Shown here: one piece after another, positions 10,289 through 37,011 of the stretch
Layout of the letters: each line of letters begins with the position of its first letter
How positions within the stretch are numbered: position 1 is the stretch's first letter
Source: Acidovorax sp. sic0104
GTDB taxonomy: Bacteria > Pseudomonadota > Gammaproteobacteria > Burkholderiales > Burkholderiaceae_C
Assembly (NCBI RefSeq): GCF_019219095.1
Contig: NZ_JAHUWH010000017.1
Coordinates: 1 to 64,000 of the forward strand
Direction of reading: 5' to 3'
DNA length: 64,000 bases
Notes under the pieces: model-generated
The model's database searches: none
The model's input: the letters and a program-made list of their open reading frames with translations, nothing else
Told to the model about the DNA's origin: nothing
Program-made: the position numbers and the translations under genes

Positions 10289-11770
10289 ATGCAGAGACCG
10301 CAAGCCAATCGCCCCCGGCGCGCCCTGCGCCTGGCGGCAGCCAGCATCGGCATCGCCGCCGTGGGAGGCCTCGGATTTGGCGCCCTGACGGCTGCGCCAC
10401 AGCCCGACCCGCAGGGGGAGAAGACCGGCGGCGAGACCACCGTTTTCGCCACCGGGCGCAACGCCTTCTCGTTCCCGGCCGCCAACCTCACCGACGAGGA
10501 GCGCACGCGCTTCGTCATCGGCAACTCGTTCTTCCGGCGCAACTGGGTGGAGGCGCCCGCCTCCACCAAGGCGCGCGACGGGCTGGGCCCGCACTTCATC
10601 GCGCGCTCGTGCGGCGGCTGCCATGTGCAGGACGGCCGGGGCGAACCGCCGGAAATCTTCAACCGCCTGGGCGAGACCAAGGACCCCACGGTGGCCCTGC
10701 TGATCCGCCTGTCCATCCCCGGCACCGACGCGCATGGCGGGCCGGTGCACGACCCCGTGTACGGCGACCAGTTCAACAATGCAGCCATCCAGGGCGTCAA
10801 GCCCGAAGGCCGCGTGACCCTGCGCTACGACACCATCAAGGGCAAGTTCGCCGACGGTACGCCCTACACACTGCAAAAGCCCACCTACGGCTTTGCCGAC
10901 CTGGGCTACGGACCCATGCACCCCCAAGTCATGACCAGCCCGCGCATTGCGCCGCAGATCATCGGCGTGGGCCTGCTCGAAGCCATTGCGGAGGCCGACA
11001 TCCTGGCCAACGCCGCCGATCAGGCCGCCGCCCCCGGCCCCATCAAGGGCGTGCCCAACAAGGTATGGGACGCACAGGCGGGCCGCATGATGACGGGCCG
11101 CTTCGGATGGAAGGCCAATGTGGCCACCATCGCGCACCAGACGGGCGGGGCCTTCCTGGGCGACATGGGCATCACCTCGCGCCACTTCGCGCAGGAGGCC
11201 TGCACGCCCACGCAGAAGGACTGCCTGGCGGCCCCCAGCGGCAAGAGCGGTGGAGAACAAGGCCAGCCCGGCGTCGAGATCGACGACAAGACCCTGGCCG
11301 ACGTGATCTTCTACCAGGCCACGCTCGCCCCCCCCGCACGCCGCAACATCAACGATGCGCAGGTGCTGCGCGGCCAGGCGCTGTTCAGCCAAGCCCAGTG
11401 CGCCACCTGCCACCGTCCGAGCTACGTCACCAAGGAAGGCCCCTTCCCGCACCTGACCAGCAAGGCGCTGAGCGGGCAGCGCATCTTCCCCTACACCGAC
11501 CTGCTGCTGCACGACATGGGCGAGCGGCTGGCCGACGGCCGGCCCGACTTCGGCGCCAGCGGCCGGCAATGGAAGACCCCGCCGCTGTGGGGCACGGGCC
11601 TGATCAAGGACGTGAACGGCCACACGCGCCTGCTGCACGACGGGCGCGCGCGCGGCGTGCTCGAAGCCGTGCTGTGGCATGGCGGCGAAGCCGAAGCGGC
11701 CAAGGACCAGGTGCTCAAGATGAAAAAGGCCGACCGGGATGCGCTCGTGAAATTCGTGGAGTCTCTATGA
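10289..11770 (+). CDS. Di-haem oxidoreductase family protein (DUF1111)
   Basis: This 493-residue protein has an N-terminal membrane anchor or signal (residues about 12-32) and two CxxCH haem-binding motifs, CGGCH near residue 110 and CATCH near residue 371. It belongs to the DUF1111 'thiol oxidoreductase-like' di-haem family, related to MauG/cytochrome c peroxidases. It is always found with imelysin genes in this type of locus, so a redox role in periplasmic iron handling is plausible but unproven here. The ATG lies 2 bp after the previous stop, so translation is probably coupled. Confidence 0.92.
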   Translation: MQRPQANRPRRALRLAAASIGIAAVGGLGFGALTAAPQPDPQGEKTGGETTVFATGRNAFSFPAANLTDEERTRFVIGNSFFRRNWVEAPASTKARDGLGPHFIARSCGGCHVQDGRGEPPEIFNRLGETKDPTVALLIRLSIPGTDAHGGPVHDPVYGDQFNNAAIQGVKPEGRVTLRYDTIKGKFADGTPYTLQKPTYGFADLGYGPMHPQVMTSPRIAPQIIGVGLLEAIAEADILANAADQAAAPGPIKGVPNKVWDAQAGRMMTGRFGWKANVATIAHQTGGAFLGDMGITSRHFAQEACTPTQKDCLAAPSGKSGGEQGQPGVEIDDKTLADVIFYQATLAPPARRNINDAQVLRGQALFSQAQCATCHRPSYVTKEGPFPHLTSKALSGQRIFPYTDLLLHDMGERLADGRPDFGASGRQWKTPPLWGTGLIKDVNGHTRLLHDGRARGVLEAVLWHGGEAEAAKDQVLKMKKADRDALVKFVESL

Positions 11771-11783
11771 ACAGAACTAGCCC

Positions 11784-11851
11784 CCACGCTCCGCCGCTGC
11801 GCGGGGCGCTGCCCCCCGAGGGGGTCGCGTTTTCATCTTGGGGCGGCCCGG
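11784..11851. repeat. Comamonadaceae-type GC-tract repeat
   Basis: The segment contains a CCGCTGCGCGG dyad, a CCCCCCGAGGGGG dyad and a CTTGGGGCGGCCCGG tail. The same combination recurs in variant form at 12966-13020 and 49164-49207. It lies between the DUF1111 stop and the preferred start of the second imelysin. Confidence 0.55.
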
Positions 11852-11853
11852 CG

Positions 11854-12963
11854 ATGAAAACATCCCTCATCGCAGCCGCCCTGCTGCTGGCCGCCCTGCT
11901 CCCCCTCGCTGCGCAGGCTCAGCCTTCTGCATCCGCGGCATCCACCGTCCCTGCCTGGCAGCGCAATGCCGTGCCGTTCTACGACACGGTGCACGCCCTG
12001 CAAGGCATCTACGGCCACTGGGCCCTGCCCCGCGCACAGGACTTCGACCGCAACGCGCGCGCGCTGGTGCCCGCTGTGGCGGCCTTGTGCCAGGCGCCGG
12101 CGGCGGACGGCAAGGCAGCGCTCGAATCCGCCCGCACCGCCTGGCAGGCCACGGCCCGCGCGTGGGAGCAGCTGGCCGCCGTGTCCGTGGGCCCCGTCAT
12201 CGCCCGCCGCAGCCAGCGCGCGATCGACTTCACGCCCACGCGCCCGGCGCTGATAGAAAAAGCCATCGCCGCCCAACCCCAGGGCGCCAAGGCCTTCGAG
12301 CGCATCGGCACGCCCGCCAAGGGCCTGCCCGCGCTGGAATGGCTGCTGTGGACACGCCCGGCCCAGCCCGGCAGCCCCGCCTGCAGCTACGCCCACGAGG
12401 TGGCGCAGGACGTGGCGCGTGAATCGGCGGCGCTCACCAAGGCCTTTACCGACGCCGCCGCGACCGATTGGGGCGCCGAAGACGAACAGGAAGGCTCCAC
12501 ACAGGCCATCAGCGAATTCGTGAACCAGTGGGTGGGCGGCATCGAGCGCCTGCGCTGGGCGCAGATGGACAAACCCCTGCGCGCGGCCCAGGGAACGCGC
12601 ACGCCGGACTACCCCCGCACCGCCAGCGGCAACACGCTGGCCGCCTGGGCCGCGACCTGGGGCGGCCTGCGCAGCGTGACCACCCTGGCCGCCAGCGCCG
12701 ACATCCCCGCCGCCGGCGAGGCCTTGGTGCCGCTCGAGATGTACCTGCGCGGCAAGGGCCTGAACCCGCTGGCCGACAAGCTGCGAGAGGCCACCGACAA
12801 GGTCGACACGTCGATGGCGCAGGTGCAGAAGTCCGGCCTTCAGAACAAGGCGGCCGTCCAGCAGACGGCCAGGGACCTGGCCGCGCTCAAGTTCCTGGCC
12901 GAGTCCGAAGTGGCGCCTGCGCTGCAGGTGAGCATCGGGTTCTCGGATGCCGATGGGGACTAG
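11854..12963 (+). CDS. Second imelysin-family periplasmic protein
   Basis: This 369-residue protein has a signal peptide ending at AAQAQ (about residue 22) and an imelysin fold. The signature region reads KGLPALEWLLW, so the His of GxHxxE is replaced while the Glu is kept. That change is common in the second imelysin paralogue of such operons and suggests altered metal binding. An alternative in-frame ATG at 11767 overlaps the DUF1111 stop, but it would add 29 residues encoded by a GC-tract repeat ahead of the signal peptide. I therefore prefer 11854. Confidence 0.88.
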   Translation: MKTSLIAAALLLAALLPLAAQAQPSASAASTVPAWQRNAVPFYDTVHALQGIYGHWALPRAQDFDRNARALVPAVAALCQAPAADGKAALESARTAWQATARAWEQLAAVSVGPVIARRSQRAIDFTPTRPALIEKAIAAQPQGAKAFERIGTPAKGLPALEWLLWTRPAQPGSPACSYAHEVAQDVARESAALTKAFTDAAATDWGAEDEQEGSTQAISEFVNQWVGGIERLRWAQMDKPLRAAQGTRTPDYPRTASGNTLAAWAATWGGLRSVTTLAASADIPAAGEALVPLEMYLRGKGLNPLADKLREATDKVDTSMAQVQKSGLQNKAAVQQTARDLAALKFLAESEVAPALQVSIGFSDADGD

Positions 12964-12994
12964 GCCAGGCAGCCCCGCTGAGGCGATGCGCGCC

Positions 12995-13010
12995 GTCCCC
13001 CCGGGGGGAC
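12995..13010. repeat. Perfect 16-bp C/G-tract palindrome in a GC-tract repeat
   Basis: GTCCCCCC followed by GGGGGGAC forms a perfect palindrome just after the second imelysin stop. It is part of a variant of the GC-tract repeat also seen near 11784 and 49164. It lies upstream of the preferred DUF1513 start at 13073. Confidence 0.5.
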
Positions 13011-13072
13011 GCCACCCGCAGATCGCCCAGGCCGGTTCTGCGGCGGCGCTCGCCTTGGCCCCGGCCCTCGGC

Positions 13073-14209
13073 ATGCCGCGCGGCGGTCGCCGCGATGCGC
13101 TGCTCGCCCTGGCAGGCCTCGGCGCATGGGTGCTGGCCCCTGGCGCGGCGCAAGCCAAAGCACAGGGCCGCGCCATCCGTCTCGCCGCCGCCTGGGAACA
13201 CCAGGGCAGTTTCCACATCGGTGTGCTGTCCACGCAGGAAGGCGCCGGGCAGGCGCTGCAGGTCCACGCATCGCTGGAAGTACCCACACGCGCCCACGGC
13301 CTGTGCATGCTGCCCGATGGGTCGGTGCTGGCCACGGCCCGCCGGCCCGGCGACTGGCTGGTGCGCTGGCGGCCCGGCGCGGGCAGCGAACCGCATTGGT
13401 TTTGGCAGGACGGCGAGCGCTCCTTCAACGGCCACGTGCTGGCCAGCGCCGATGGCCAGCGGCTTTACACCACCGAGACCGATGCCGAGACCGGCGCGAG
13501 CTGGATCGTGGCGCGCGATGCGGGCACGCTCGCACCCGCCGCCGAGTGGCCCACCCACGGCATTGATGCGCACGAACTGATCTGGGACACACGCGGTGGC
13601 GGCGGCCAGGGCAACGCCCCCACGCTCATCGTCGCCAACGGCGGCGTGCCCACGGCCCCCGAAACTGGCCGCGTCAAGCGCGACCTGGGCACCATGGATT
13701 CATCGCTCGTGCGGCTGGATGCCCGCACGGGCCGGCTGCTGGGCCAATGGCGCCTGCAGGACAAGCGCCTGAGCCTGCGCCACCTGGCCTGGAGCCCCGA
13801 CGGCCAAGTGCTGGGCATTGCCCTGCAGGCGGAGCACGACGATGCCGCGGCAAAGGTTGCCGCCCCCGTGCTGGCCCTGTTCGACGGCATCGCGCTGCGC
13901 GTGGTGTCGGCGCCCCCGCACATCGCCCCCAGCCTGAACGGCTACGGTGGCAGCACCGCCGCCACGCCCGCAGGCTGGGCCGTGAGCTGCCCGCGCGCCC
14001 ACGGCATCGCCACGTTTTCGCTCCAGGGCGAGTGGCAGGGCCTGGTGCCACTGCCCGAGGTGTGCCCTCTGGCCGTGCGCAGCGGCGCGCTGTGGGCCGG
14101 CGGCCTGGCCGCCAGCCTGCAGGACGCACTGGCGCCGGACCCGTTGAATCACCCGCACGGAAGCCAGCTGCAAGGCGTGCGGCTGGACAACCATTGGGTG
14201 ACTGCATGA
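13073..14209 (+). CDS. DUF1513 family exported beta-propeller protein
   Basis: This protein of 378 residues has a leader with GGRRDALLALAG and a cleavage site near AAQA (about residue 27), resembling a Tat signal. The mature part is a repeated WD/propeller-like sequence (HGLCMLPDGSVLAT, GHVLASADGQRLYTTE, HELIW, LSLRHLAWSPDGQVLG) typical of DUF1513. It closes the imelysin/DUF1111/imelysin operon and presumably acts in the same periplasmic iron-related process; no activity is known for the family. The frame is open upstream to 12947, but that part is GC-repeat sequence. I chose the ATG next to the leader. Confidence 0.85.
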   Translation: MPRGGRRDALLALAGLGAWVLAPGAAQAKAQGRAIRLAAAWEHQGSFHIGVLSTQEGAGQALQVHASLEVPTRAHGLCMLPDGSVLATARRPGDWLVRWRPGAGSEPHWFWQDGERSFNGHVLASADGQRLYTTETDAETGASWIVARDAGTLAPAAEWPTHGIDAHELIWDTRGGGGQGNAPTLIVANGGVPTAPETGRVKRDLGTMDSSLVRLDARTGRLLGQWRLQDKRLSLRHLAWSPDGQVLGIALQAEHDDAAAKVAAPVLALFDGIALRVVSAPPHIAPSLNGYGGSTAATPAGWAVSCPRAHGIATFSLQGEWQGLVPLPEVCPLAVRSGALWAGGLAASLQDALAPDPLNHPHGSQLQGVRLDNHWVTA

Positions 14210-14224
14210 ACGCCCGCTTTTTTT

Positions 14225-14280
14225 TGATCAAACAAGGCCCTGGCGCTCTCCAGCAAAGCGCCGTTAGCTACTAAAAGTAG
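14225..14280. repeat. Dispersed palindromic element (GGCGCT/AGCGCC plus CTAC/GTAG)
   Basis: An intergenic element between the convergent DUF1513 gene and the fibre operon. It combines TGATCA, a GGCGCT...AGCGCC stem and CTACtaaaaGTAG. It is the longest member of the dispersed palindrome family found across this window, and its hairpins could stop transcription from either side. Confidence 0.5.
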
Positions 14281-14363
14281 AGCGTTCGGGCATTGGATTG
14301 CCGACGCATGGCAGCCCGTCCAGAACGAACCCGGAGGCCCTGGTCGCCGCGTGGCCCGGGTTG

Positions 14364-14618
14364 TCAACGCCCCGTGAACATGAAGTACGCCAGCACGCAC
14401 ACCGCCAGTGCCACGATGAGCTTGGCAATCCATGGCGTCACCAGCCACCCGCCCAGCGCCACGGCCACGCGGCCCCACACATGCGGGGATTGCAGCGCGT
14501 TGTGCGGCTGCGCTGGCGGCGAAGGCCCCCGGTCCTGCAGCGGATAACCGCAGGACGGGCAGGACGGTGCGTGCGATGAGATGTCACGCCCGCATTCGGG
14601 GCAGCGGATCAGGGCCAT
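14364..14618 (-). CDS. Zinc-ribbon protein with C-terminal membrane segment
   Basis: This 84-residue protein starts with a two-knuckle zinc ribbon (CPEC at residues 6-9, CPSC at 20-23) and ends with one transmembrane segment at about 62-82. The Pro-rich linker suggests a cytoplasmic metal-binding head on a membrane anchor. It begins 4 bp after the OmpA-domain gene stop, so it is probably the last gene of the fibre operon. Its connection to fibre assembly is only positional. Confidence 0.75.
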   Translation of the reverse strand: MALIRCPECGRDISSHAPSCPSCGYPLQDRGPSPPAQPHNALQSPHVWGRVAVALGGWLVTPWIAKLIVALAVCVLAYFMFTGR

Positions 14619-14622
14619 GGGT

Positions 14623-15336
14623 CTATCTCCCGTCCTTGCTCGGAACGCCGATCAGTATCTGCACGCGGCGGTTCAGTTGGCGCCCCTGCGGGTCGTCCCG
14701 GCCGTCTGGCAAGGTGTTCGGCGCCACCGGCTCTCGCTTGCCCCGGCCATCGGTGCGTGCCTGCCGGCCGGTCTGCTGCTGCAGCGCCCGCGCCACGGCC
14801 TCGGCACGGCGCAGGGACAGCGGGTCGTTGTAGGCGTCCGTGCCCTTGCCGTCGGTGTGGCCCAGCACCGTGAGCGGCGCGCTGGCGTAGCTCTTGATGA
14901 GCTCGGCCGCCTTCGCGATCGAGGGCGCCGCATCGGCCCGCAACTCGGCCTTGTCGAAATCGAAGAGCACGTCGGCGGGCAGGTCGATGGAGATCGCCTG
15001 CTCGGGGGTGGAGCGGGCCTTGAGTTCAGCCAGCAGGGCGCGGGTCGCCTGCAGCCGCTCCCTGGGTACCTCGGCTTCGCGCAGGATGGTCTGCGGCCCA
15101 CCGCTGCGCTGCAGCGTGGTGTCCTGCGAGCGAGCGGCCAGGCCGCCCCCCTGCTCCTGCAAGCGCAGCGTGGTGGACGGGGCCCCCGACGCCGGCTCCA
15201 GCCGGGTGGGAACGCCCGCCAGCGCCCTGCCGCTGCGCACCACCTCCTGCGCTGCCGCAGGGGCCGTGATTGCCATTGCCAGGCACGACAGGCTCAGCCC
15301 AAGCCAAAGCCGGCCCTGCAGCGTCCGGTGCCGCAT
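14623..15336 (-). CDS. OmpA-domain peptidoglycan-binding protein
   Basis: This 237-residue protein has a signal peptide ending at APAAAQ (about residue 30), a linker, and an OmpA_C domain at about 115-235 (DVLFDFDKAELR, VLGHTDGKGTDAYNDPLS, QLNRRVQI). Such domains bind diaminopimelate in peptidoglycan. The protein has no beta-barrel and no lipobox, so it would be periplasmic. Its ATG overlaps the upstream lipoprotein stop (TGATG), tying it to the fibre operon. Here it probably anchors the secretion apparatus or a fibre base to the wall. Confidence 0.88.
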   Translation of the reverse strand: MRHRTLQGRLWLGLSLSCLAMAITAPAAAQEVVRSGRALAGVPTRLEPASGAPSTTLRLQEQGGGLAARSQDTTLQRSGGPQTILREAEVPRERLQATRALLAELKARSTPEQAISIDLPADVLFDFDKAELRADAAPSIAKAAELIKSYASAPLTVLGHTDGKGTDAYNDPLSLRRAEAVARALQQQTGRQARTDGRGKREPVAPNTLPDGRDDPQGRQLNRRVQILIGVPSKDGR

Positions 15337-15968
15337 CAGCCGCCTTGCAGGGGCAGGTCGACCACCAGCCCCGGCGCCACGATGTTGTCGTCCTGGTTGC
15401 CGTCGTTGAAGACCAGCTTGAGCTTGCGCGCCGACGGTGACACCGCGCCCATGAAGACCAGTTGGCCGTCCAGCGTCTCGCCTTCGCGGATGGTGATGTC
15501 GCGGTTGTTGTCCGGGCGCTTGATGTGCAGGCGCGCGCCGGTCTCGTCCTGCAGGTAGGTATCGGCCAGCGCCAGCATGGTGGTATTGGTGATGCGGTTG
15601 GCGAAGGAAATGCTCACATCGAGCACCGTGGCGTCCGCGCCGATCTCCACGGCCTTGATGCGCACCGTGACGCCGGCAGCGGCAACGCCCTGCACGGCCA
15701 GCGGGACGCGCTTGGGTGACGCCGCTGCCACGGGTGCGGCCGGCGGCGCGGCAGCCACCGCAGACGTCGTTGACGCGGCCGGCGGCGTTGCCACGGCAGG
15801 AGCCGCAGCGGGCGCGGCGCCCACGGCGGGCGCCTCGGGCGCCCGGTCCTTGCACGCGGCCAGGAGCAGGGCCGCCGTGGCAAGGCCCAAGGCGGTGGCC
15901 TTGCGCACGGCCACCCGGGTCCGGCGGATCGAAACCACGGTGTGCAAGGCGTCGGATGGAGTGTGCAT
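15336..15968 (-). CDS. Lipoprotein with Ala/Pro linker and beta-sandwich-like domain
   Basis: This 210-residue protein has a hydrophobic leader ending in LLLAAC, so Cys39 is the likely lipidation site. Residues about 45-95 are a low-complexity Ala/Pro linker, long enough to reach through the periplasm. The C-terminal 110 residues (VRIKAVEIGADATVLDVSIS, ITIREGETLDGQLVFMG) resemble small Ig-like domains of the DUF4352 kind. Family assignment is tentative. The gene overlaps the OmpA-domain gene by the TGATG arrangement. Confidence 0.75.
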   Translation of the reverse strand: MHTPSDALHTVVSIRRTRVAVRKATALGLATAALLLAACKDRAPEAPAVGAAPAAAPAVATPPAASTTSAVAAAPPAAPVAAASPKRVPLAVQGVAAAGVTVRIKAVEIGADATVLDVSISFANRITNTTMLALADTYLQDETGARLHIKRPDNNRDITIREGETLDGQLVFMGAVSPSARKLKLVFNDGNQDDNIVAPGLVVDLPLQGG

Positions 15969-16050
15969 GGTGTACTTGGAGATCACTGGTGATTGGTTTT
16001 GTGTGACGGTGGTTGAAGGCTCGCGAGCGATGGGTGCCAGGGTCGCGCCG

Positions 16051-16614
16051 TCAACGGATGCGGATGCTGTTGGTCTGGCCAGTGGCGCCTTGCCCGGGGG
16101 CCGCTGGCTGCGCGCCCCGCGAGCAGTCGCGCGTGCGCACATCGTTGGCATTGCGCCCCTGCACGATGACGGTGCGGCCCTCCAGCCGCGCGCCCGACAC
16201 GTCCACGCTGTTGACGGACGCGGACCCATCCTCGGCGCAGCGCGTGCCCGCAGCCGTGTTGCCTGACACCTCGATGCGATTGCCTTCTACGGAAGCTCTG
16301 GGCGCACGGCCGGGATGGCCTGCAGCGCCGGCAGGCGTGCCAGGCCGGGCCACGGGGCTCGCGCGGTGGGTGGGGGGCGGCGGGCTTGCAGGCTCTGTGC
16401 CGGTGGTGCCTGTAGCCCCTGTCGGTCCCACCGGCCCCGTCGGCCCCGTCGGCCCGACAGGACCCACTGGGCCGCTCGGACCGGCAGCCAACGCCGCCGA
16501 GCCTGCTGTCAGCACCCCGCACAACGCGACCGCCACGCACCGCAGCGTCGCGCGGCATGCCAGACCGTGGAGTCTTGCCCACCCTGGGTATGGCGACATC
16601 GCTCTCTTCATCAT
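16051..16614 (-). CDS. Secreted collagen-like / solenoid-repeat hybrid protein
   Basis: This 187-residue protein has a long leader (cleavage near residue 43), then ten uninterrupted Gly-X-Y triplets (residues 45-74, mostly GPV/GPT), a Pro/Ala-rich linker, and two repeat units at 112-187. These units match the repeats of the two large repeat proteins at the other end of the operon (IEVSGNTA, SVNSVDVSG, VIVQGRNANDV, ending TNSIRIR). Cys126 and Cys164, one per unit, may form a disulfide. The start has GGAGG 6 bp upstream. A trimeric collagen-like stalk carrying a fibre-compatible cap is a plausible reading; the function is unproven. Confidence 0.82.
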   Translation of the reverse strand: MMKRAMSPYPGWARLHGLACRATLRCVAVALCGVLTAGSAALAAGPSGPVGPVGPTGPTGPVGPTGATGTTGTEPASPPPPTHRASPVARPGTPAGAAGHPGRAPRASVEGNRIEVSGNTAAGTRCAEDGSASVNSVDVSGARLEGRTVIVQGRNANDVRTRDCSRGAQPAAPGQGATGQTNSIRIR

Positions 16615-16627
16615 CAGATCCTCCGCA

Positions 16628-17461
16628 TCAGGGCGGCGCCTTGCCCGGAACGCCCGGCAACGTGCTGCCGGGCGCCGCTGCGGAGGCGGCAGCCGCCGGC
16701 CGGGGCACGGCCGTCATGCCTGGCAGCCCCGACCCCGGCCGCGTGGCCGCGGCAGCGGCGGGCCGGGCGTCGCCGCCGCGGTCCGTGCCATCCCCCGCAG
16801 CCTGCCGCTGCACGCGCGCCTCCAGCTCGGACGCAAAGCGCTCGGCCAGCGCGACTTCCTCCACGGCCATCTCCGCACCCAGCTCGTTGATGACCGACAG
16901 CACATTGCGGTGCGTGCCGGTGTCGGGCTGGGCCATGCGCTCCAGCAGGCGGGCATAGCCCAGGGCGCGCACGTTGTCCTTGGGAACGCCCTGGCCCTTG
17001 CGGTTCATCTCGGACAGGCGCTGCATGGCGCGCGGGTCGCCACGCACGGCGGCCAGCAGGTACCAGCGGTAGGCCTGCCCCATGTCACCCAGGCCAGAGC
17101 GCGGGTTCTGGTAGGCATCGCCCACGAAGGAGAGCAACTGCGGGTTCTGCGTGTTCAAGGCCTCGCGCTTGAGACGCTCCAGCTCGTTGCGGTAGATGGG
17201 ACCCTGGCAGCCCAGCTCGGGCACGCCGCGCTCCAGGGCCTCGTTGCACGATTCGATGAAACGCGCACCCACGGTGGCCCCGGGCGCAGTGGTCTGTTGC
17301 GCGGGGGCAGGCGTTGGGGTGCCCGACGTGGCTGCCGCAGCCGCACCGGGACTGGCGGGCGCTGGGCTGGCGGGTGGCAGTTGCGCGAACGCCGGCACTG
17401 TCAGCGCGGCATACAGCATCCAGGGTGCACCCCGGCGCAGGGGGCTGGCAACACGCATCAT
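16628..17461 (-). CDS. Secreted Sel1/TPR-like repeat protein
   Basis: This 277-residue protein has a signal peptide (cleavage near PAFAQ, residue 27), a Pro/Ala linker, and a helical Sel1-like region at about 90-215 (MGQAYRWYLLAAVRGDPRAM, KDNVRALGYARLLERM). The C-terminus is a disordered Ala/Pro/Gly tail. Sel1 repeats usually mediate protein-protein contact. Its ATG overlaps the stop of the CsgG-like gene (ATGA), indicating coupled synthesis. A periplasmic adaptor or chaperone role for the secretion channel is inferred. Confidence 0.78.
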   Translation of the reverse strand: MMRVASPLRRGAPWMLYAALTVPAFAQLPPASPAPASPGAAAAATSGTPTPAPAQQTTAPGATVGARFIESCNEALERGVPELGCQGPIYRNELERLKREALNTQNPQLLSFVGDAYQNPRSGLGDMGQAYRWYLLAAVRGDPRAMQRLSEMNRKGQGVPKDNVRALGYARLLERMAQPDTGTHRNVLSVINELGAEMAVEEVALAERFASELEARVQRQAAGDGTDRGGDARPAAAAATRPGSGLPGMTAVPRPAAAASAAAPGSTLPGVPGKAPP

Positions 17462-18627
17462 GTGCCCGCCTTGGCGCCTGCGGGCGCTGCGGCGCCGGCC
17501 GGTGCCGCACCGGGAATCTGCGCCTGTGCGGTATCCCAGGACATGGGCACCCCGAAGAACAGCGGCTCGAAGCCCTGCCAGGTCATCACGTCCACGGCGC
17601 CCAGCGACGCAAAGCGTTGGGCGTAGACCTTCTCGAGCGCCTGGCGCGTCTGGTCGTCGTACTGCTGCGTGACCTGCACCGGCTCGCCGTACTTGCGCAG
17701 CGTGACCTGCACGAGGCCGAGCTTGAGCTCTGGCGTGAGGCCGTTGTAGGCCGCGCGCATGTTCTCGATCACCACGGGGTCGGGCGTGCCGTTCGGGATG
17801 CAGCGCCAGTACGGGGTGTTGGTGGCCTTGCCGACCAGCTCGAGCACGCTCAGGTCCACCAGCGTGCGGATCGCCGAGTGGCGCCCCTGCAGGTATTTGC
17901 CTTCGAGCTTGAAGCCGAAGGCGTCGCCATAGAAGCCCAGGCTGGCGTTGTCTTCGGAACTGAAGTTGAGCACCTTGACCACGTTCGATGCCTGCACCTG
18001 CGGCACCATCTGCTGGGTGGAGAAGCTCACCAGATTCAGGTCCAGCGCCAGGGCGGAATAGATGGCCGTGCGCTTGACGTCGCCGCCCAGTGTGGTCTTG
18101 CCGTTGCCCTTGCCGAACTCGATGCCCGCCGAGTTCACGCGGCCGGCGCCGGCGATGGCACGGTCGAACTCCGTGAGCGCGCCGGTGATGAGAAAGTCGG
18201 GCATCGTCACGCCGAACTTGGCGCCCAGCTGCGCCTGCGACACCAGGTAGTCGGGGTGGTAGGGCACGTACACCACGCGCGCGCCGATGCGGTTGACGGC
18301 GGTGCGCACCATCTCGGTGATGTCCCCGGGGATCTCCGCCCCCACCAGCGGACTCGACAGGTTGGTGGCATCCAGGATGCTGCGGGTCTGCATGTAGATG
18401 ACCGGGTCGCCCTCCTTGTAGACGTCCAGCATGCGCCCGAAGCGGCCCAGCGCCAGTGAATAGGGGCTCAGGTTGGTCACGGGCAGGAGTTTGTCGGCCT
18501 CGCGCTCCTGCAGCAGGGTATTCGCGTCCTTGAGCGCGTTCTCGGTGGTTGCGCAGCCCGCGAGGGCAGCCAGGGCCAGGGCCATTGCCCCCCAGCGCAA
18601 TGTTTTCTTCTTCGTTGTCGTCTTCAT
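17458..18627 (-). CDS. CsgG/HfaB-type outer-membrane secretion channel lipoprotein
   Basis: This lipoprotein of 389 residues has the lipobox ALAGC with Cys25. The body follows the CsgG layout: a helix rich in aliphatics (EMVRTAVNRIGARVVYV), a strand DFLITGALTEFDR aligning with the IMVEGSIIGYE strand of CsgG, a long strand pair LALDLNLVSFSTQQMVPQVQ corresponding to the NLRVVNVSTGEIL region, and a C-terminal helix STAIR-like region (HSAIRTLVDLSVLELVG). CsgG forms the ungated pore that exports curli subunits, and HfaB does so for holdfast anchor proteins. The extra C-terminal 70 residues and Ala/Pro/Gly tail are unlike CsgG. Being surrounded by secreted repeat proteins strongly supports an export role. 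Confidence 0.82.
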   Translation of the reverse strand: MKTTTKKKTLRWGAMALALAALAGCATTENALKDANTLLQEREADKLLPVTNLSPYSLALGRFGRMLDVYKEGDPVIYMQTRSILDATNLSSPLVGAEIPGDITEMVRTAVNRIGARVVYVPYHPDYLVSQAQLGAKFGVTMPDFLITGALTEFDRAIAGAGRVNSAGIEFGKGNGKTTLGGDVKRTAIYSALALDLNLVSFSTQQMVPQVQASNVVKVLNFSSEDNASLGFYGDAFGFKLEGKYLQGRHSAIRTLVDLSVLELVGKATNTPYWRCIPNGTPDPVVIENMRAAYNGLTPELKLGLVQVTLRKYGEPVQVTQQYDDQTRQALEKVYAQRFASLGAVDVMTWQGFEPLFFGVPMSWDTAQAQIPGAAPAGAAAPAGAKAGT

Positions 18628-18696
18628 GGTTCTTTGTTTTCGTGGTGTTGTGAAAGCCCCGCTCTCTCGGGGCTGCAAGGCGCTTGGGCCGCTGCG

Positions 18697-19158
18697 TCAG
18701 CGGCCTGAATTGAGGACTGTGATGTTCTCCACCCCCTTGCCTTCCACATAGAGCGTCACGTTGCCGTTGACGTTGCCCTGGATCACCGGGCTGGCGATGC
18801 GCAGCGTGCCGTCGGCGCCGCGCTGCACGTCCGAATAGGTGGAGCGGATCACGATGTTCTTCTGCCCTTCAGGCAGCTTGAGCGTGCCGTCCGGCTGCAC
18901 CAGCGCGCTCTGGTCCACCAGCGTGTTCTGCGAGATGGCGCGGTTCACGCGGGCCTTGGCGCTGACGGATGGGTAGACGCCGTCGTTCAGCCGCACACCG
19001 CTTTGCGCCATGTCCTTGTAGGCGCCCAGCTGCTCGCCGTAGTTCACCAGCTGCGCCTGCGCGCCGGTTGCCGTCAGCGCCAGCACACCGGCTGCGCAAG
19101 ACAGCCACCATGCCCGCGCGGCACGCCCGGGAAATTTCCTTGTTTCTCTGTTTTCCAT
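18697..19158 (-). CDS. Secreted protein of unknown family in the fibre operon
   Basis: This 153-residue protein has a signal peptide (cleavage near AQAQ, residue 35). The mature part is beta-rich, with segments NIVIRSTYSDV, GTLRIASPVIQGNVNGNVTLYVEG and a terminal VENITVLNSGR. The start has AAGGAG 6 bp upstream. It lies between the giant repeat protein and the CsgG-like channel, the position of minor subunits or nucleators in curli-like loci. The length is close to that of the HfaA type, but I cannot show homology. Confidence 0.72.
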   Translation of the reverse strand: MENRETRKFPGRAARAWWLSCAAGVLALTATGAQAQLVNYGEQLGAYKDMAQSGVRLNDGVYPSVSAKARVNRAISQNTLVDQSALVQPDGTLKLPEGQKNIVIRSTYSDVQRGADGTLRIASPVIQGNVNGNVTLYVEGKGVENITVLNSGR

Positions 19159-19216
19159 TGCTGCTCCTTCATCCACTGAAATCGAGAATCCGCTGCGCGG
19201 CGGGCCGTTGCGGGGC

Positions 19217-22200
19217 CTACATGCTCAGCAGGTTGACCGCCGGCAGCACCGTGACCGACTGGTTCACCACGCCGGTCGAAGGGATCGTGTAGGTGTAGCC
19301 AGGGTTGGCCGCGAACGGTGTGTTGCCCGCCACGCCGACGACCCCCGTGACGGCGCCGCCCAGGTTGCGCACGCTGCCCGATGTCATGCCCGCCGCTGCG
19401 GCGGTCATGTTCCCGACGATGGTCACCGCGCCGGTGATCACGCCCTGGTTGATCACGGAGTTGGACACGCCGCCCACGGCCGCGTTGCCCTGGTTGCCCG
19501 CGATCACGACAGTGCCCGCCATGACCCCGTGGTTCACCAGCGAGTTGACGGTGCCACCCATCGTGGCGCTGCCCCGGTTGCCGGCGATCAGCACCCGGCC
19601 TGACAGTTGGCCGCGGTTGTCCACGCTGTTGACCGTGCCGCCGCCCGTGGCGTTGCCCTGGTTGCCGGTCACGACGATCTGCGCGCCTGCGACGCTGCCG
19701 CTGTTGTGCAGCCCGTTGACCAGGCCACCGCCGCTGGCGCGGCCCGTGTTGCCCGCGATCAGCACCTGGCTGCCCTTGATGGAGCCGGAGCCGGAGACGC
19801 TGCTGACCTTGCTGCTGCCCCCCTGGGCGCTGGCCTGGTTGCCCAGGATGGTGATGTTCGAGCCCGTGATGCTGCCTTCGGCGCGCACGCTGTTGGCCAG
19901 CGCGCCGGAGTTTGCCGAACCCGCGTTGCCGATGATGGTGATCTGGCTGCCGGTGACGCGGCCGTTGCCCACCACGCTGTTGATGGCGCCGCCATCGCGT
20001 GCCGAACCCTGGTTCCCCAGGATGGTGATGCTGCCGCCCTGCAGCGTGCCCGCCACGTCCACGCTGTTGGCCGCGCCCTGCTGCGCCGTGCCCTGGTTGG
20101 CCGTCACAGTGACGTTCGAGCCTGTGATGCGTCCACGGCTTTGCGCCCGCACGCTGTTGGCCACGCCGTCGCGCCCTGCGGCCCGCGCACCGCCCTGGTT
20201 ACCCACCACCTGCACCGAGCTGCCCTGCAGCGTGCCGTCCACCTGCACGCTGTTGGCCAGCGCAGTGCTGCCCTGCTCGGCCTGCGTGGACACCGCGGTG
20301 TTGGCCGCGATCAAGGCCTGCACGCCATCCACGCGGCCGCCCGCGCCTTGCGAGAAGCTGTTGGCGGCGGCCAGGCCCTCGGTGGCCTGCACCCGGCCTG
20401 CCGCGTTGCCCATGAGCTGCAGGCTCGCCGCGCGCATGTCGCCCAGCACCTGGACCGCGTTCGCGTTGGCTTGCCCGATGCCCTTGCCGAAAGCGGCAAA
20501 GCCGGCCACGGTGCCTTCGCGGCCCTCGCTGCGCACGTCGGACGCGGTGTTGCCCGCCAGGGTGAGGTTGCTGCCCTGCACACGGCCCTGCGCATTGATC
20601 GACAGCGCGTTGGCGTTGATGCGGCCGCCATCGGCATTGAGCTGCCGCGCGGTATTGCCCGCCACCAGCAGGCCGGTCTGCGACAGCGCCGTCGCGCCCG
20701 ACCCATCCATGTACAGGCCGTTGGCAGCCAGCACGCCGTTGGACTTGCTGCCTACACCGAGCGCCTGCGCACCGCTGCCGGCTGCACGGATGTCCTCGCC
20801 GGTGTTGCCCACGATGGTGACGGGACTGCCTTGCACGGAGGCACTGCGGTAGCCAGCCAGTGCATTGACCAGTGCCGTGCCCCCCGTGGCGTGCACGCCG
20901 CGCGCAGTATTGGCCGCGATAAGCCAGGGCGAAGAGGCATCCACCCGCGCGCCGTCGTGCAGCACCAGGGCGTTGGCGGCCGCGCGTGCGCGGGTTTCGC
21001 GCCCGACCAGCCCGCCGGCGCCTGAGACCGAATCGGCCGTGGTGGTCATGTCCGTGGCGGTGTTGTTGCTCAGCACGCCATCAGCCGACAGCCTGGACGG
21101 CGCACCCGCCCCGTTTTCGATCGCAATGCTGTTGGCCTGCAGCGCGCCGCCGCGCGCTGCCAGGCGCGAGGCCGTGTTGGCCGCCATCGTCAGCGTGGCA
21201 GCATCAAGCTGCGAACCCGTGACGGACAGCGTGTTCGCCAGCGCGGCGGACTGCTGGCTCGCTGAAAACAGCAGCCCGCCACCTGCCTGCGCGGCGTAGC
21301 CGGTGGACTGCACGCCGTCGGCACGATTGCCCGCCAGCGTGACGGCCGTGTTCTGCACGCGGCCTTCGCTCACCATCAGAGCGTTGGCGGCGGCCAGGCC
21401 GCCCGATCCGGTCACGGACTCGCCCCGGTTGCCCGACACGGTGACTGCTGCCCGCTCCAGCGTGGACTGGTGGTCGGCCACCACAGTGTTGGCCAGCGCT
21501 CGGCCGTTGCGCTCCAGCGCACCCACCGCGCCGCCGCCGATACTGCCCGCACCGCCCGCAGTGCGCACCTTGTCGGCCACGTTGCCGGACAGCAGCACCG
21601 ATCCCCCGCGCACCGTCGCGTTGTCCAGCCACAGGCTGTTGGCGGCGGCGCCGCCGCCCGTGGCGACCACGTCGCGGGCCTCATTGCCGGCGAGCCGGTG
21701 CACCGGACCTTCAGCCAGTTCGCCGCGCGTGACGGAAATGGTGTTGGCCAGGGCCGATGCCGACACCCTCACATCGGCCAGCGCACCGCCCAGGATCGAG
21801 CCTTCTCCGCCCCACGCCTGCACGTTGCGCGCCTTGTTGCCGGACACGCCCGCCTGGTAGCCGGCCGAGCCCGCGAGCTTGTGGTCGGTGAAGCTGATGC
21901 TGTTGGCCAGAGCGCTGCCGCCGGTGGCGATGACTTCGGCGGCCTCATTGTCTGCAAGCACCAGCTGCGCGCCCTTGAGCTCGCTGGTGGCCAGCGTGAC
22001 GGCGTTGGCCGCGGCCACGCCGGTCAGGTTCACTTGCGCGATGGTGCCGCGCCCCACCGCGCCGCCTCCGCCACCCGCACGCACGTCCTGCGCGCGGTTG
22101 CCGGTGTGCAGCACCCGCGTGTCCACCAGCACGGAGCGCGCTGCGGTCAAGGCATTGGCCAGCGCCGAGCCACCGATGGAGGTGACGCGCCGTGCATCGT

Positions 22201-22798
22201 TGTCCGTCAGTGCGATGTCGGAATTGCGCACTTCTGTCGCGTCCAGCAGCACGCTGTTGGCCGTGGCGCGACCCGGCATCTGCAAAGAGCCGGTGCCCAG
22301 CAGCACCTCGGCCTTGGCACCGAAGGCCGCGACGTCGGCTGCGCGGTTGCCCTGCACCAGCAGGCGGCTTGCCGTGAGCGGCTTGACGCCCTCCGAACTC
22401 GCAGCCAGCACCATGTTGGCCGTGGCCGCACCGCCCAGCGCGTGTATGAAGCCGTTGACCTGATTGCCCAGAACGTACACCCGCGACTGGCGCACATCCA
22501 TGGCCGCCAGGCCAATGCCGTTGGCCTGCGCCGTGCCGGCCAGGTCCACCCGCATGCCGGCATTGGCCAGGGCAGAGCCCTTGCCGCCTGTGGAGACCAC
22601 CGGGCCCGTGGACTTGTTGTCCAGCACCTGGAGCTGGCTGTTGCCATCCACCTGCGTGCCGGGGCTGTTCTTGTGCCAACCCAGGCCGCCCAGCATGGAT
22701 TCCTGGGCGCCGGCACCGGCAGGCGCCACGGCCACCGAGATGCCCAGCAGCCACAGCGCGGCCTTTTCATGCGGTTGCGTCTTGCGCTTGATGTGCAC
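19217..22798 (-). CDS. Giant secreted solenoid-repeat surface protein (candidate fibre or adhesin)
   Basis: This 1193-residue protein has a signal peptide (cleavage near AGAQ, residue 31). The rest is about 30 copies of a beta-solenoid-like unit with core pattern hhhxGNxAxxVxAxGGxAxANSh. From about residue 110 to 826, units of about 48-52 residues alternate with units of 34-37. From residue 857 to the end there are ten or eleven uniform 28-30-residue units (for example ITGSNITILGNQ). Composition is Gly/Ala/Asn/Val-rich with almost no Cys. The start is GTG with AGGGG upstream. Length, repetition and the nearby CsgG-like channel suggest a surface fibre or adhesin; the fold is inferred from periodicity. 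Confidence 0.85.
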   Translation of the reverse strand: MHIKRKTQPHEKAALWLLGISVAVAPAGAGAQESMLGGLGWHKNSPGTQVDGNSQLQVLDNKSTGPVVSTGGKGSALANAGMRVDLAGTAQANGIGLAAMDVRQSRVYVLGNQVNGFIHALGGAATANMVLAASSEGVKPLTASRLLVQGNRAADVAAFGAKAEVLLGTGSLQMPGRATANSVLLDATEVRNSDIALTDNDARRVTSIGGSALANALTAARSVLVDTRVLHTGNRAQDVRAGGGGGAVGRGTIAQVNLTGVAAANAVTLATSELKGAQLVLADNEAAEVIATGGSALANSISFTDHKLAGSAGYQAGVSGNKARNVQAWGGEGSILGGALADVRVSASALANTISVTRGELAEGPVHRLAGNEARDVVATGGGAAANSLWLDNATVRGGSVLLSGNVADKVRTAGGAGSIGGGAVGALERNGRALANTVVADHQSTLERAAVTVSGNRGESVTGSGGLAAANALMVSEGRVQNTAVTLAGNRADGVQSTGYAAQAGGGLLFSASQQSAALANTLSVTGSQLDAATLTMAANTASRLAARGGALQANSIAIENGAGAPSRLSADGVLSNNTATDMTTTADSVSGAGGLVGRETRARAAANALVLHDGARVDASSPWLIAANTARGVHATGGTALVNALAGYRSASVQGSPVTIVGNTGEDIRAAGSGAQALGVGSKSNGVLAANGLYMDGSGATALSQTGLLVAGNTARQLNADGGRINANALSINAQGRVQGSNLTLAGNTASDVRSEGREGTVAGFAAFGKGIGQANANAVQVLGDMRAASLQLMGNAAGRVQATEGLAAANSFSQGAGGRVDGVQALIAANTAVSTQAEQGSTALANSVQVDGTLQGSSVQVVGNQGGARAAGRDGVANSVRAQSRGRITGSNVTVTANQGTAQQGAANSVDVAGTLQGGSITILGNQGSARDGGAINSVVGNGRVTGSQITIIGNAGSANSGALANSVRAEGSITGSNITILGNQASAQGGSSKVSSVSGSGSIKGSQVLIAGNTGRASGGGLVNGLHNSGSVAGAQIVVTGNQGNATGGGTVNSVDNRGQLSGRVLIAGNRGSATMGGTVNSLVNHGVMAGTVVIAGNQGNAAVGGVSNSVINQGVITGAVTIVGNMTAAAAGMTSGSVRNLGGAVTGVVGVAGNTPFAANPGYTYTIPSTGVVNQSVTVLPAVNLLSM
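19348..20230 (-). repeat. C-terminal block of 28-30-residue coding repeats
   Basis: About ten tandem in-frame units of 84-102 bp encode residues 857-1149 of the giant protein. Each begins with a short strand (ITGSNITI, VTGSQITI, IKGSQVLI and similar), then GNxGxA, a glycine turn and NSV. They are protein repeats with variable DNA, not identical spacers. Confidence 0.8.
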
Positions 22799-22831
22799 TC
22801 AGAGCCCCTGTCGACGTGAAAGGATGATGGC

Positions 22832-22858
22832 CAGGCTGCCGGGCGCGCGCCCGGCCTG
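22832..22858 (-). promoter_or_regulatory. Intercistronic hairpin between the small and giant repeat genes
   Basis: GCCGGGC-gcgc-GCCCGGC is a perfect 7-bp stem extended by CAGG/CCTG. It lies in the 88-bp gap between the two repeat genes. No T-tract follows, so it is more likely an mRNA-stabilising or partial-termination structure. It could raise the amount of small subunit over the giant protein. Confidence 0.5.
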
Positions 22859-22886
22859 CCTGCAGTTGGTCACTGGGCCCATGGGC

Positions 22887-23246
22887 TCAATTGATGTTGA
22901 CGCTGTTGACGTTGGCCGTGCCGCCGATGGCCTTGATGTCGGTGGCCTCGTTGCCGCTCACGGTGATGTCCGAATTGCGGATCTTGGAGCCCGTGATGTT
23001 GATGCTGTTGACGTTGGCCACGCCTTCCATGGAGATCTCGCCCACCTTGATGCCAGCCTTGCCGCCACCGGCGATGACGTTGGTCGCCTTGTTGTTGGTC
23101 ACCATGATCCGGCTGTTGGTCACTTCCGATCCCGCCGACCCCTTGCCCGAGAACAGGCCGGGAATGGTGACGTTGCCGCTCTGGGCAAAGGCTGCGCCGC
23201 ACGTGAGGGTGAGTGCAGCAGCGGCGGTAATGGCAATTTTGCGCAT
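22887..23246 (-). CDS. Small secreted solenoid-repeat protein (candidate major subunit)
   Basis: This 119-residue protein has a classical signal peptide (cleavage AFA|Q at residue 21). The mature 98 residues hold one long repeat unit (about 47 residues, starting RIMVTNNKATNVIAGGGKAG) and one short unit (DITVSGNEATDIKAIGG), ending exactly on the conserved NSVNI strand. This is the same long-short pair that is multiplied in the giant protein next door. The start has AAGGA 8 bp upstream. As first gene of the operon it may be the main fibre subunit, as CsgA is in curli; this is inference. Confidence 0.82.
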   Translation of the reverse strand: MRKIAITAAAALTLTCGAAFAQSGNVTIPGLFSGKGSAGSEVTNSRIMVTNNKATNVIAGGGKAGIKVGEISMEGVANVNSINITGSKIRNSDITVSGNEATDIKAIGGTANVNSVNIN

Positions 23247-23623
23247 ATCAATAATCCTTGTGAAATTGGAAATAATCGATGAGCAGCCCCTTTGCGGCCT
23301 GCCAGCGGATTCTTGATGAGCACGTTTGCCGCGACAGTAAATAAATGTTGCCGCTCAAATACCAAGAGAAAAGAGCCCCTGCGCGCAGCCCCTCACGCAC
23401 TGCAGCACCCTCGCAGGGCGCATGGCATTTCGTTTTGTAGGACAAGGACTTACGAAGAACATCCGTGTGCACCGACATGCGCGGCGGCCCAATGAAACCA
23501 GTTTCAAGATCCAAAAAACTAACAAGTCTTCACACTTCGTATAACTATGAATCTCAAACCAACATCTTGAAATCTGTTCTCCAAGGAAAATAATTGTTAA
23601 TGCCTCGGATTATTGTCATAAAT
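23247..23623. other. AT-rich divergent promoter region of the fibre operon
   Basis: These 377 bp separate the fibre operon from the divergent lipoprotein gene and are AT-rich for this genome. I found no convincing gene and no clean -35/-10 pair. An imperfect duplication lies at 23600-23655, where two copies of ATGCCTCG(G/T)ATT occur, one upstream and one inside the lipoprotein start. Any regulator site for the fibre operon should be here. Confidence 0.55.
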
Positions 23624-24226
23624 ATGAAATCAAATACCATGCCTCGTATTGCATTCGTGGCCGCCGCACTGTTGATGGCGGGCTGCTCGCCTTCGGCACC
23701 TCCGCCTGTCGCCTACCCCAGCGACGCACAGATTTCCGCGGCCCTGGAAACGCAGTTTGCGAGCGACCGCAACAGTGCGGCTGCGCGGGAGCTGATCCGC
23801 ACCCTGGGGGGAGACAAAGGCAAGCTGCGCTTTCAGATCCACCATGTGATCTATCGCCAGGGTGCGTACGAGGCGCGCTACGACGCGGTGCTGGTGATGG
23901 GGCAATCGGGAGCACAAAGCCTGCAGGCGTTGTACGCCAGCATGATTCCGGAGGCAGAGCGCACCAAGCTGCCCGAGGCCAGCGTGTTGGCCTACGAGAC
24001 CTGGCTCAAGCAGCAGGCAGAGGCGCTCAAGAAAACATCCGCGCCCCAGGCTGCGGCGTTGAACAACACGCTGGAGATGCTGGGCAAGTGCTACCGCGAC
24101 CTGCAAGCGGGCGCCGAGGTCCCAGTCATGCTGGGCCTGGGTGCGCTGATATCGCCCGAGCGCAACGGCTTGTACGCGGAAAAGCTCGCCCTGCCGGACA
24201 CCACGGCGCGCTGCCTGCCCGCGTGA
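23624..24226 (+). CDS. Lipoprotein of unknown function
   Basis: This 200-residue protein has a leader ending in LLMAGC, so Cys20 or so is lipidated. The rest is helical (ISAALETQFASDR, LKQQAEALKKTSAPQAAALNNTLEMLGKCYRDL) and has two further cysteines. No family is recognised. It faces the fibre operon across an AT-rich region and may share control with it. The start is uncertain: a TTG at 23594, and ATGs at 23600, 23624 and 23639 are all in frame. I used 23624 because it gives a normal lipoprotein leader. Confidence 0.65.
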   Translation: MKSNTMPRIAFVAAALLMAGCSPSAPPPVAYPSDAQISAALETQFASDRNSAAARELIRTLGGDKGKLRFQIHHVIYRQGAYEARYDAVLVMGQSGAQSLQALYASMIPEAERTKLPEASVLAYETWLKQQAEALKKTSAPQAAALNNTLEMLGKCYRDLQAGAEVPVMLGLGALISPERNGLYAEKLALPDTTARCLPA

Positions 24227-33983: not shown

Positions 33984-34170
33984 CCCAATTGAGCAGATTC
34001 AGCTGCTTTGTGGGCATTCAGACAAGTCGACCACGGAGAAGTACATCAAGGCGCGATGGAACGCTCTAGCGCAGCCCAACCAGCTCCACATCTGAGTTTG
34101 CAGCAACACGTTGCGCGTTGTTACGAGACGTCACTCCCCGGTAGGACAAGGCCGCGATTCACGCCAGAAT

Positions 34171-34186
34171 TTAACATCTGTGTTAA
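34171..34186 (+). promoter_or_regulatory. Operator palindrome of the TAC module
   Basis: TTAACAtctgTGTTAA is a perfect 6-bp inverted repeat 10 bp upstream of the toxin-like ATG, in an AT-rich promoter zone. It is well placed for autorepression by the XRE-family antitoxin encoded next. Confidence 0.7.
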
Positions 34187-34196
34187 CCTGCAGCCT

Positions 34197-34715
34197 ATGA
34201 TGCTCTTGAAGCAGGTCACCATTGACGCTATCTACAGCCATACCCAGAAAGGCGCAGAACGGGCTCTCACCCCGGGACGCAGCTATGGGAAGGTGTGGGA
34301 TGTCTGCACGCCTGCGGGCACCGATGTGGATTTGTCGAAGTCAAAATTTTTTAAGTCAATCACTGCAGATATTTCAGACGATGTCGGCAAAAAGAAAAAT
34401 TTCTTTGATCTCGTCAACGGCGTTTTTGAAGCATCCAATATTGATAATTTTAGAGAATACTACAGCGAATCAACTACCACGCAATTCAAAGAAGCTCATG
34501 CCTTTGATTACGGGGGAAGAAAAATAAAAATCCACGAAGTGAAAAATCTCAGAAAAAAGGAGCGACTCTACATTTACTGCGGTGAGCTTGCCGGCAAAAA
34601 GCGATGTGTATTGCTTCTTGCGATTCATAAAAAAGATGAGACCACGCCAGAAAATGTGAAGACCTACTGCGAAGATCAAGTTAAAGAATTTCTCAAACAT
34701 ACGCAAGGCCGATAA
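34197..34715 (+). CDS. HigB/RelE (Gp49-like) toxin of a TAC module
   Basis: This protein of 172 residues has a C-terminal part (about 105-170) that follows the HigB/Gp49 layout: a strand KIHEVKNLRKKERLYIYCG, a strand KKRCVLLLAIHKK, and a helix with ETTPENVKTYCEDQVKEFL. HigB-type toxins cut mRNA on the ribosome. The N-terminal 100 residues are an extension with no recognised fold. Codon use and base composition are AT-rich compared with the host, pointing to transfer. It starts 10 bp after a palindromic operator and is followed 3 bp later by the XRE gene. An open frame upstream to 34008 is phage-remnant sequence; the ATG at 34197 is preferred. Confidence 0.7.
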   Translation: MMLLKQVTIDAIYSHTQKGAERALTPGRSYGKVWDVCTPAGTDVDLSKSKFFKSITADISDDVGKKKNFFDLVNGVFEASNIDNFREYYSESTTTQFKEAHAFDYGGRKIKIHEVKNLRKKERLYIYCGELAGKKRCVLLLAIHKKDETTPENVKTYCEDQVKEFLKHTQGR

Positions 34716-34718
34716 ATC

Positions 34719-35803: not shown

Positions 35804-35893
35804 GTTGTTCTGCGGCTCCTGTCCTTCGTGGCGGGGGCGCTATACATTGCTCAATTTGGCCCAGTTCGCGGACGAATTCCCCCAAAGCTACAG

Positions 35894-35948
35894 AGCACTC
35901 GGGTCGCGAAGCGTCCATTTCTATCATCCGCTTCGCGGCCCGGGTGCT
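35894..35948. repeat. Long 20-bp inverted repeat hairpin after the TAC module
   Basis: AGCACTCGGGTCGCGAAGCG is followed after 15 nt by CGCTTCGCGGCCCGGGTGCT, pairing over 20 bp with two G-T pairs. No U-tract follows. It may end the TAC transcript, act as a small RNA, or be a recombination site of the element. Confidence 0.65.
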
Positions 35949-36177
35949 CTGCTGGTGGTGCCCGCTCAGCTCAAAAGTTGAGCGTCCGCTTTCATCTTCT
36001 ACCCCAGGCTGCTCCTGGCCGAGCACAGTCGGCGGCTAGAGTTGTAACCTCACATATACAGTACTGTACCGGTAGATTACCAAACATAAATCACCGACTC
36101 CTGATTGAAAAGTATGTGACACTACAGAGTCAGAAAGCTAGGAACGGCGCGGTATAGAGGCCTGAATGCCCGGGGGC

Positions 36178-36906: not shown

Positions 36907-37011
36907 CGATCATTCCCCATATAATCCCTCAAATGATACATCTCTAACAAGCAGTTTCAAATTACCCCAAAGTGCAAAGATAGACTGAACCTCCCTTTGA
37001 TCGGAGGTGAA

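Follow-up and report, generated by a model that had tools for sequence, protein, structure and literature searches.

Which export system is represented by a cluster of genes in Acidovorax sp. sic0104 that sets a putative outer-membrane channel of the CsgG/HfaB superfamily beside secreted repeat proteins: curli, a holdfast anchor, or another branch of the same superfamily? The cluster occupies positions 14364-23246 on the minus strand of the 64,000-nucleotide stretch that we analysed (hereafter the window; contig NZ_JAHUWH010000017.1, positions 1 to 64,000), where nine open reading frames (ORFs) were found, named p1 to p9 in gene order. An earlier interpretation made from the letters of this DNA (the sequence-only reading) had described a nine-gene set at these coordinates; the nine genes stand, in a conserved order, but a tenth member, the divergent gene p10, had been missed. 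We hold with moderate confidence that these ten genes form a locus for a curli-like surface rod, exported across the outer membrane by a CsgG-superfamily channel that is distinct from both curli CsgG and HfaB. Such a system would be a type VIII-like exporter whose substrates and partners are new.

The repeat proteins p1, p2 and p6

The repeats of the giant secreted protein p2 (19217..22798, minus strand, as for all of p1 to p9; 1193 aa) fall into units of several lengths. Between residues about 60 and 831 (20306..22621), long units of 48-51 residues and short units of 34-39 residues alternate strictly, nine times; these double units are followed by a tail of two 34-residue units, then eight of 28-30 residues (residues about 900-1128; 19415..20101) and a final partial unit. 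The secreted protein p1 (22887..23246; 119 aa) carries a single long-plus-short double repeat of ~85 residues. A p1 profile run against the whole genome retrieved p1 itself and then eight places in p2, spaced at roughly the length of a double unit; at seven of them E was ≤ 1.4e-5 and at the eighth 0.077. The best hit outside p1 and p2 (0.126) contains a stop. We therefore read p1 as one long-plus-short unit and p2 as nine such units fused; the p1 and p2 profiles match each other at 97.7%. Furthermore, when three p1 cores were placed end to end and compared with the p2 family model, one joint was aligned through with a single one-residue gap.

The p2 homologues are consistent with this unit structure. 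With unit starts hand-picked in the window sequence and then mapped onto the homologues, the opening Asn of every p2 unit is kept in relatives wherever the unit is present, the exception being one Thr in locus L024. The p2 lengths in relatives differ by about whole units: the Pseudacidovorax protein is shorter by about one 85-residue double unit plus one 28-residue unit, and those of Variovorax and Xenophilus by about one 28-30-residue unit.

A third protein belongs with these two. The C-terminus of p6 (16051..16614; 187 aa) matches p1 at 97.7% over 60 columns in a profile comparison, and on the strength of these alignments we assign p6, by its C-terminus, to one repeat family with p1 and p2. 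The sequence-only reading was thus right that p1 and p2 are repeat proteins, but two was not the full count, and it had not recognised p2 as a fused p1 multimer. It had also called p6 a collagen-like hybrid. The window p6 does contain such a tract, with ten consecutive Gly-X-Y triplets that were matched by none of 2000 shuffles (Pfam E 0.0025, under the cut-off), but the tract is optional, present in 12 of 21 p6 sequences and absent from nine, whereas the Cys pair of the p1-type double unit occurs in all 21. We rejected a collagen-like adhesin as the description of p6 on these counts; by sequence, it is a third subunit of the p1/p2 kind, with a conserved cysteine pair. As for cysteines elsewhere, p2 has none, and p1 and p3 have one each, within the signal-peptide region.

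The channel protein p4 and its relatives

The lipoprotein p4 (17458..18627; 389 aa) had been taken for a CsgG/HfaB-type export lipoprotein, and that assignment held. Searches with single hidden Markov models gave it partial backing: the HfaB model NF037935 matches at E 3.1e-5, but the score is far under the cut-off (23.3 against 300 bits), and Pfam CsgG reaches only E 0.12. Profile-profile comparisons (hhalign) returned 97.8% (E 1.1e-12) with the HfaB set, which contains one duplicated row, and 98.1% with the combined HfaB and CsgG set, over 229 columns that cover most of the channel domain; the best match, at 99.0%, was to CsgG-type proteins of Burkholderiales. The top value among the remaining families compared, where the set labelled 'trio_sub' holds one sequence only, was 36%, for a 29-residue N-terminal stretch common to p7. 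A P-Y-W-x-C motif at p4 residues 272-276 (window 17800-17814) is invariant in 26 of 26 CsgG-type proteins (alignment A3). In one relative, the p4 reading frame is interrupted by one TGA stop (G781:C1:1242799-1243929).

A 59-row tree, which like our other channel trees carries long-branch warnings, resolves four groups: p4 (9 rows; support 100/99), HfaB (7; 98/96), curli CsgG (18; 100/99) and other Burkholderiales proteins (25; 88/65). Two constrained topologies, one joining p4 to HfaB and the other joining it to curli CsgG, were rejected (p-AU 0.0029 and 0.0030, respectively). As judged from these alignments and trees, p4 is a member of the CsgG/HfaB superfamily in a clade separate from HfaB and from curli CsgG; by analogy with those proteins, it would be an outer-membrane pore.

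We examined 20 Burkholderiales CsgG-type loci without p4 (in the range L031-L040 and L140-L148, for example L140, L142 and L147). A small, Cys-containing secreted partner with a shared ending (like VVLRGDLVNICR; this ending was chosen for counting after several partners had been inspected) is encoded in 16 of the 20; in 13 of these the partner gene immediately precedes the channel gene, in the same orientation. Several of the loci also have genes for secreted repeat proteins close to the channel, and some have Sel1-type or OmpA-type genes nearby; an OmpA-type gene lies within the stretch in six of the 20. These loci differ from that in the window in that their channels are mostly ~500-600 aa, with DUF4384 in both that were scanned, and in that their subunits have no match to p1 or p2. 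Paralogues of p4 carry DUF4384 and PG_binding_1 (the latter at E 5e-7 in L040 and under the cut-off in L034). PG_binding_1 had no match in the window p4 by Pfam scan; the C-terminal extension of p4 (17458..17826) lies inside the range aligned to the paralogues, their counterpart being PG_binding_1. A nearer relative is L029, from genome G051 of another family of the order, in which OmpA, p1-like, p3-like and p4 genes stand in a row and p4 is 45% identical, whereas p2, p5, p6, p7, p9 and p10 were not recognised there; in terms of gene content, we regard L029 as a minimal relative of the window's type. Because this channel sits in a Burkholderiales group that includes many smaller relatives, the window locus is an elaborate form and not a lone oddity.

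Might p4 nevertheless work as HfaB does, with p1, p2, p6 and p3 forming, instead of a long fibre, a short complex at the cell surface to which a polysaccharide adhesin or capsule is tethered? We consider this holdfast-anchor-like arrangement unlikely, at perhaps one chance in several. HfaB is the top curated match of p4, and according to PMC6707917 HfaA and HfaD, which anchor a polysaccharide, do not arrive at the outer membrane without HfaB. In two alphaproteobacterial HfaB loci, moreover, an HfaD-like protein of ~1000 aa, comparable in size to p2, is encoded beside HfaB (L079:970-3978 and L080:576-3656; the corresponding proteins of L073, L074 and L076 have 402-418 aa). Profile comparisons of p2 with HfaD (≤ 6.5%) and of p3 with HfaA (≤ 2.2%) are nevertheless empty, and a true hfa locus was rejected on that account; the joint clade of p4 and HfaB is rejected, gene order is different, and Pfam and model scans recognised no polysaccharide genes within the cluster. 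The sequence-only reading had not seen the usual hfa layout either.

A CsgG-like fold also occurs in LpoB or TolB relatives. We judge it improbable that p4 is a non-pore periplasmic envelope lipoprotein of this fold, with the repeat proteins taking another route or staying in the periplasm. The score of p4 under the Pfam CsgG cut-off would suit such a protein, as would the single other Pfam CsgG match in the source genome (L137:7704-8867, G000:C44): no repeat-protein genes were recognised next to this gene of ~387 aa, and a CsgG-type gene thus need not mark an export locus. Two observations argue for a pore instead: the HfaB/CsgG profile alignment extends over most of the channel domain, and p4 is constantly linked to secreted repeat proteins, with similar linkage in the related Burkholderiales loci. 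A standard curli system whose parts have diverged, which would also unite a channel of this superfamily with repeat subunits in one cluster and for which CsgA homologues of up to 22 repeats are on record (PMC3521004), was rejected as very improbable: at E ≤ 1 neither the curlin repeat PF07012 nor CsgF PF10614 is matched in the source genome, profile comparisons link neither p1 nor p2 to CsgA and do not link p1 to CsgB, and the clade of p4 with curli CsgG is rejected.

Gene order, distribution and the other genes of the locus

The cluster is conserved across related loci. A close p4 (E below 1e-200) is present in 9 of 36 genomes of the genus, source genome included, and the nine genes have an identical order in all eight of the relatives' loci within the genus. 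Among 21 named loci (from Acidovorax, Ottowia, Diaphorobacter, Variovorax, Xenophilus and Pseudacidovorax, plus two records named to family or phylum), p1 to p9 are all in order in 19, and the other two, L093 and L100, are cut by contig ends; the nearest named relatives of the source genome that carry the locus are Acidovorax. L138 and L139 hold the full p1-p9 set in this order, and seven further loci hold p1 to p8 in every case, p9 in five and p10 in six; in one of them, L151, p1 and p2 were confirmed as separate ORFs. Not all of these counts are independent, because several records repeat a genome (L084 repeats L022, L085 L021, L086 L024, L088 L026, L089 L027, L091 L023, and L152 L096), and gene starts in the fetched loci are approximate because they were called by a home-made ORF scorer.

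In wider samples, p4 was found at E ≤ 1e-30 in 19 of 398 genomes of a family sample (8 of 141 genera) and below 1e-180 in four of 399 genomes of an order-wide sample, namely the source genome, two of its family and G051; the hits in G051 arise by construction, because the alignments used for the order-wide p4 query (A1) and for the p3 search (A5) include L029 proteins. When 369 genomes of the class were searched with the p1 profile, the source genome alone gave a match.

The divergent gene p10 (23639..24226, plus strand) encodes a lipoprotein of 195 aa to which no Pfam family was assigned. It is single-copy in the source genome and adjoins p1 in 30 of 31 loci, the exception being the 3.4-kb contig L100; neither L029 nor L151 yielded it. 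Within the genus, its presence coincides exactly with that of close p4 and p3 (9 of 36 genomes). Neighbours beyond p10 and the cluster were matched in the Acidovorax loci and L138 only. On this record, p10 is the tenth member of the locus. Between p1 and p10 lies a putative control region (23247..23638) with promoter-like sites on both strands: the four sigma-70-like sites found in 14000-24000 as consensus matches, against 0.5 expected, are all within 23236-23640. Terminator-like sites in 14000-24000 numbered four, fewer than the 6.1 in shuffles. Hairpins that might act as attenuators fold between p1 and p2 and between p3 and p4 in many loci, but in most they are barely more stable than shuffles of the same composition, and we make no claim for them.

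The sequence-only reading had described gaps that are short or overlapping throughout. This is accurate for p4/p5 (overlap 4, ATGA), p7/p8 (overlap 1, TGATG), p8-p9 (gap 4) and p5-p6 (gap 13), but not for four gaps of 58-88 bases: p1-p2 (88), p2-p3 (58), p3-p4 (69) and p6-p7 (82). The Sel1, OmpA and zinc-ribbon members that it named were all recovered: p5 (16628..17461; 277 aa, with a signal-peptide-like start) matches Sel1 at E 2.7e-6, slightly below the Pfam cut-off (28.2 against 30.7 bits); p8 (14623..15336; 237 aa) has a C-terminal OmpA-family domain (E 7e-16); and p9 (14364..14618; 84 aa) combines Zn_ribbon_3 (E 2e-7) with a hydrophobic segment. The OmpA-type domain makes p8 a likely peptidoglycan anchor, in agreement with the earlier suggestion that the cluster has its own wall anchor. 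p7 (15336..15968; 210 aa) is a lipoprotein with a weak DUF4352 match (E 0.02). N-termini that resemble signal peptides are read in p1, p2 and p3, and lipobox-like cysteines in p4 and p7.

The secreted protein p3 (18697..19158; 153 aa) adjoins the channel gene and is strongly conserved, with no assigned family. A short helix-like motif is visible both in p3 and in the small partners of the Burkholderiales loci; homology between them is not claimed, the score being 16.5 against 16.3 for the best of 40 column shuffles. The p3 of L093, apparently mis-started, was left out of this comparison, although alignment A5 and the family set for p3 still include it. Searches of the Protein Data Bank (PDB) with p4, p3, p1 and p2 profiles gave nothing convincing; the p3 profile did reach a synthetic PPR repeat protein (E 0.0009), but through weak repeated pieces, and this hit was set aside.

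Some features around the cluster were also recorded. A TGTGGATAA block, which has the form of a DnaA box, lies upstream of p1 in L021, L023, L025-L028 and L087, all Acidovorax loci, and is absent from the window, L022 and L024. Three plus-strand genes at 10289-14209, presumably di-heme peroxidase-like, imelysin-like and DUF1513-like, adjoin the cluster and were matched beside it in the Acidovorax loci and L138 only. Further along, positions 34001-40000 have a G+C fraction of 0.49-0.57, against 0.62-0.74 in the remaining 2-kb windows; this stretch may be a mobile or acquired island.

A proposed surface rod and its relation to known systems

We return to the proposal that the locus exports a curli-like rod. 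In its favour we count the conserved gene order, the place of p4 within the superfamily but in its own clade, the kinship of p1, p2 and p6, the fused architecture of p2 with its loss of whole units, the p1-p1 joint that aligns to p2, the exact co-occurrence of p10 and p3 with p4 in the genus, and the small secreted partner and occasional OmpA gene of the related Burkholderiales loci. Pfam and model scans also recognised no alternative exporter inside the cluster. Several results weigh against it. p4 falls under both the Pfam CsgG and the HfaB cut-offs; single curli CsgG sequences do not match it significantly (E. coli, 4.9%; L083, not above 20%), and its profile found no CsgG chain among PDB sequences at E ≤ 1. 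The profile of p3 matches none of HfaA, CsgF and CsgE, and its score with the small partners is about that of the best shuffle. The second p1-p1 joint in the end-to-end comparison was split between two alignments. Finally, p9 is missing from two, and p10 from one, of the seven further loci.

We envisage the following sequence of events. The signal-peptide-like N-termini suggest that p1, p2, p3 and p6 would leave the cytoplasm via Sec. By homology, the chains of p1 and p2, which lack Cys past the signal region, could then cross the outer membrane unfolded, threaded through a pore built from several p4 copies. Outside, each long-plus-short unit may fold and contribute to a rod of stacked repeats that carries Asn/Gly ladders. 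Here p2, with its nine double units and tail, might serve as a ready-made rod or base; the ends of p1 match a p2 unit boundary in the alignment, and p1 might add head-to-tail. p6, with its single Cys-paired double unit, is a candidate cap or nucleator, and p3 may gate secretion or couple it to assembly, taking the place of CsgF or HfaA, which it does not resemble in sequence. The OmpA domain of p8, the C-terminal extension of p4 and the lipoproteins p7 and p10 would tether the complex to the wall and outer membrane. More tentatively, we suggest that this may be a third branch of CsgG-type export, beside curli and the holdfast anchor, in which a rod is built from a free p1 unit and a nine-unit covalent polymer, p2, with a disulphide-stapled p6 cap, all of them threaded unfolded through one pore that has p3 as a new gate, and with dedicated peptidoglycan anchors; we rate this fuller scheme as somewhat less likely than not.

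We found the gene set described nowhere in the open-access literature that we searched, a scope that excludes subscription journals and preprints. If the proposal is correct, CsgG-type export would have branched at least once more, with other substrates and partners, in Acidovorax, Variovorax and related bacteria. A subunit that is fused by nature offers a route to asking how subunits stack and what sets rod length, and the p2 chain, about eight times the length of CsgA, lets one ask how a CsgG-type pore copes.

The nearest points of reference are the two characterised systems that use this superfamily. With HfaABD of Caulobacter, the locus shares a channel of one superfamily (p4 and HfaB) and secreted partners encoded beside it; it differs in the separate clade of p4, in the extra genes p5-p10 and in gene order. 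In their survey, Dueholm et al. (PMC3521004) report that many CsgG hits are likely paralogues from a larger family and that two curli systems were found in Betaproteobacteria; nonameric CsgG is capped by CsgE, according to PMC6050966. The sequence-only reading had seen no csgA/csgB-type repeats, csgE or csgF here, which for PF07012 and CsgF proved true of the whole genome, while E. coli CsgE, compared with p3 and p4 only and not searched genome-wide, matched neither. Like the curli system (csgBAC, csgDEFG; type VIII secretion), the locus pairs a CsgG-superfamily channel with repeat-built secreted subunits. The curlin repeat is roughly 22 residues long, whereas the repeat units here span 28-51 residues and are accompanied by a fused p2, a Cys-paired p6 and genes of wall-anchor type.

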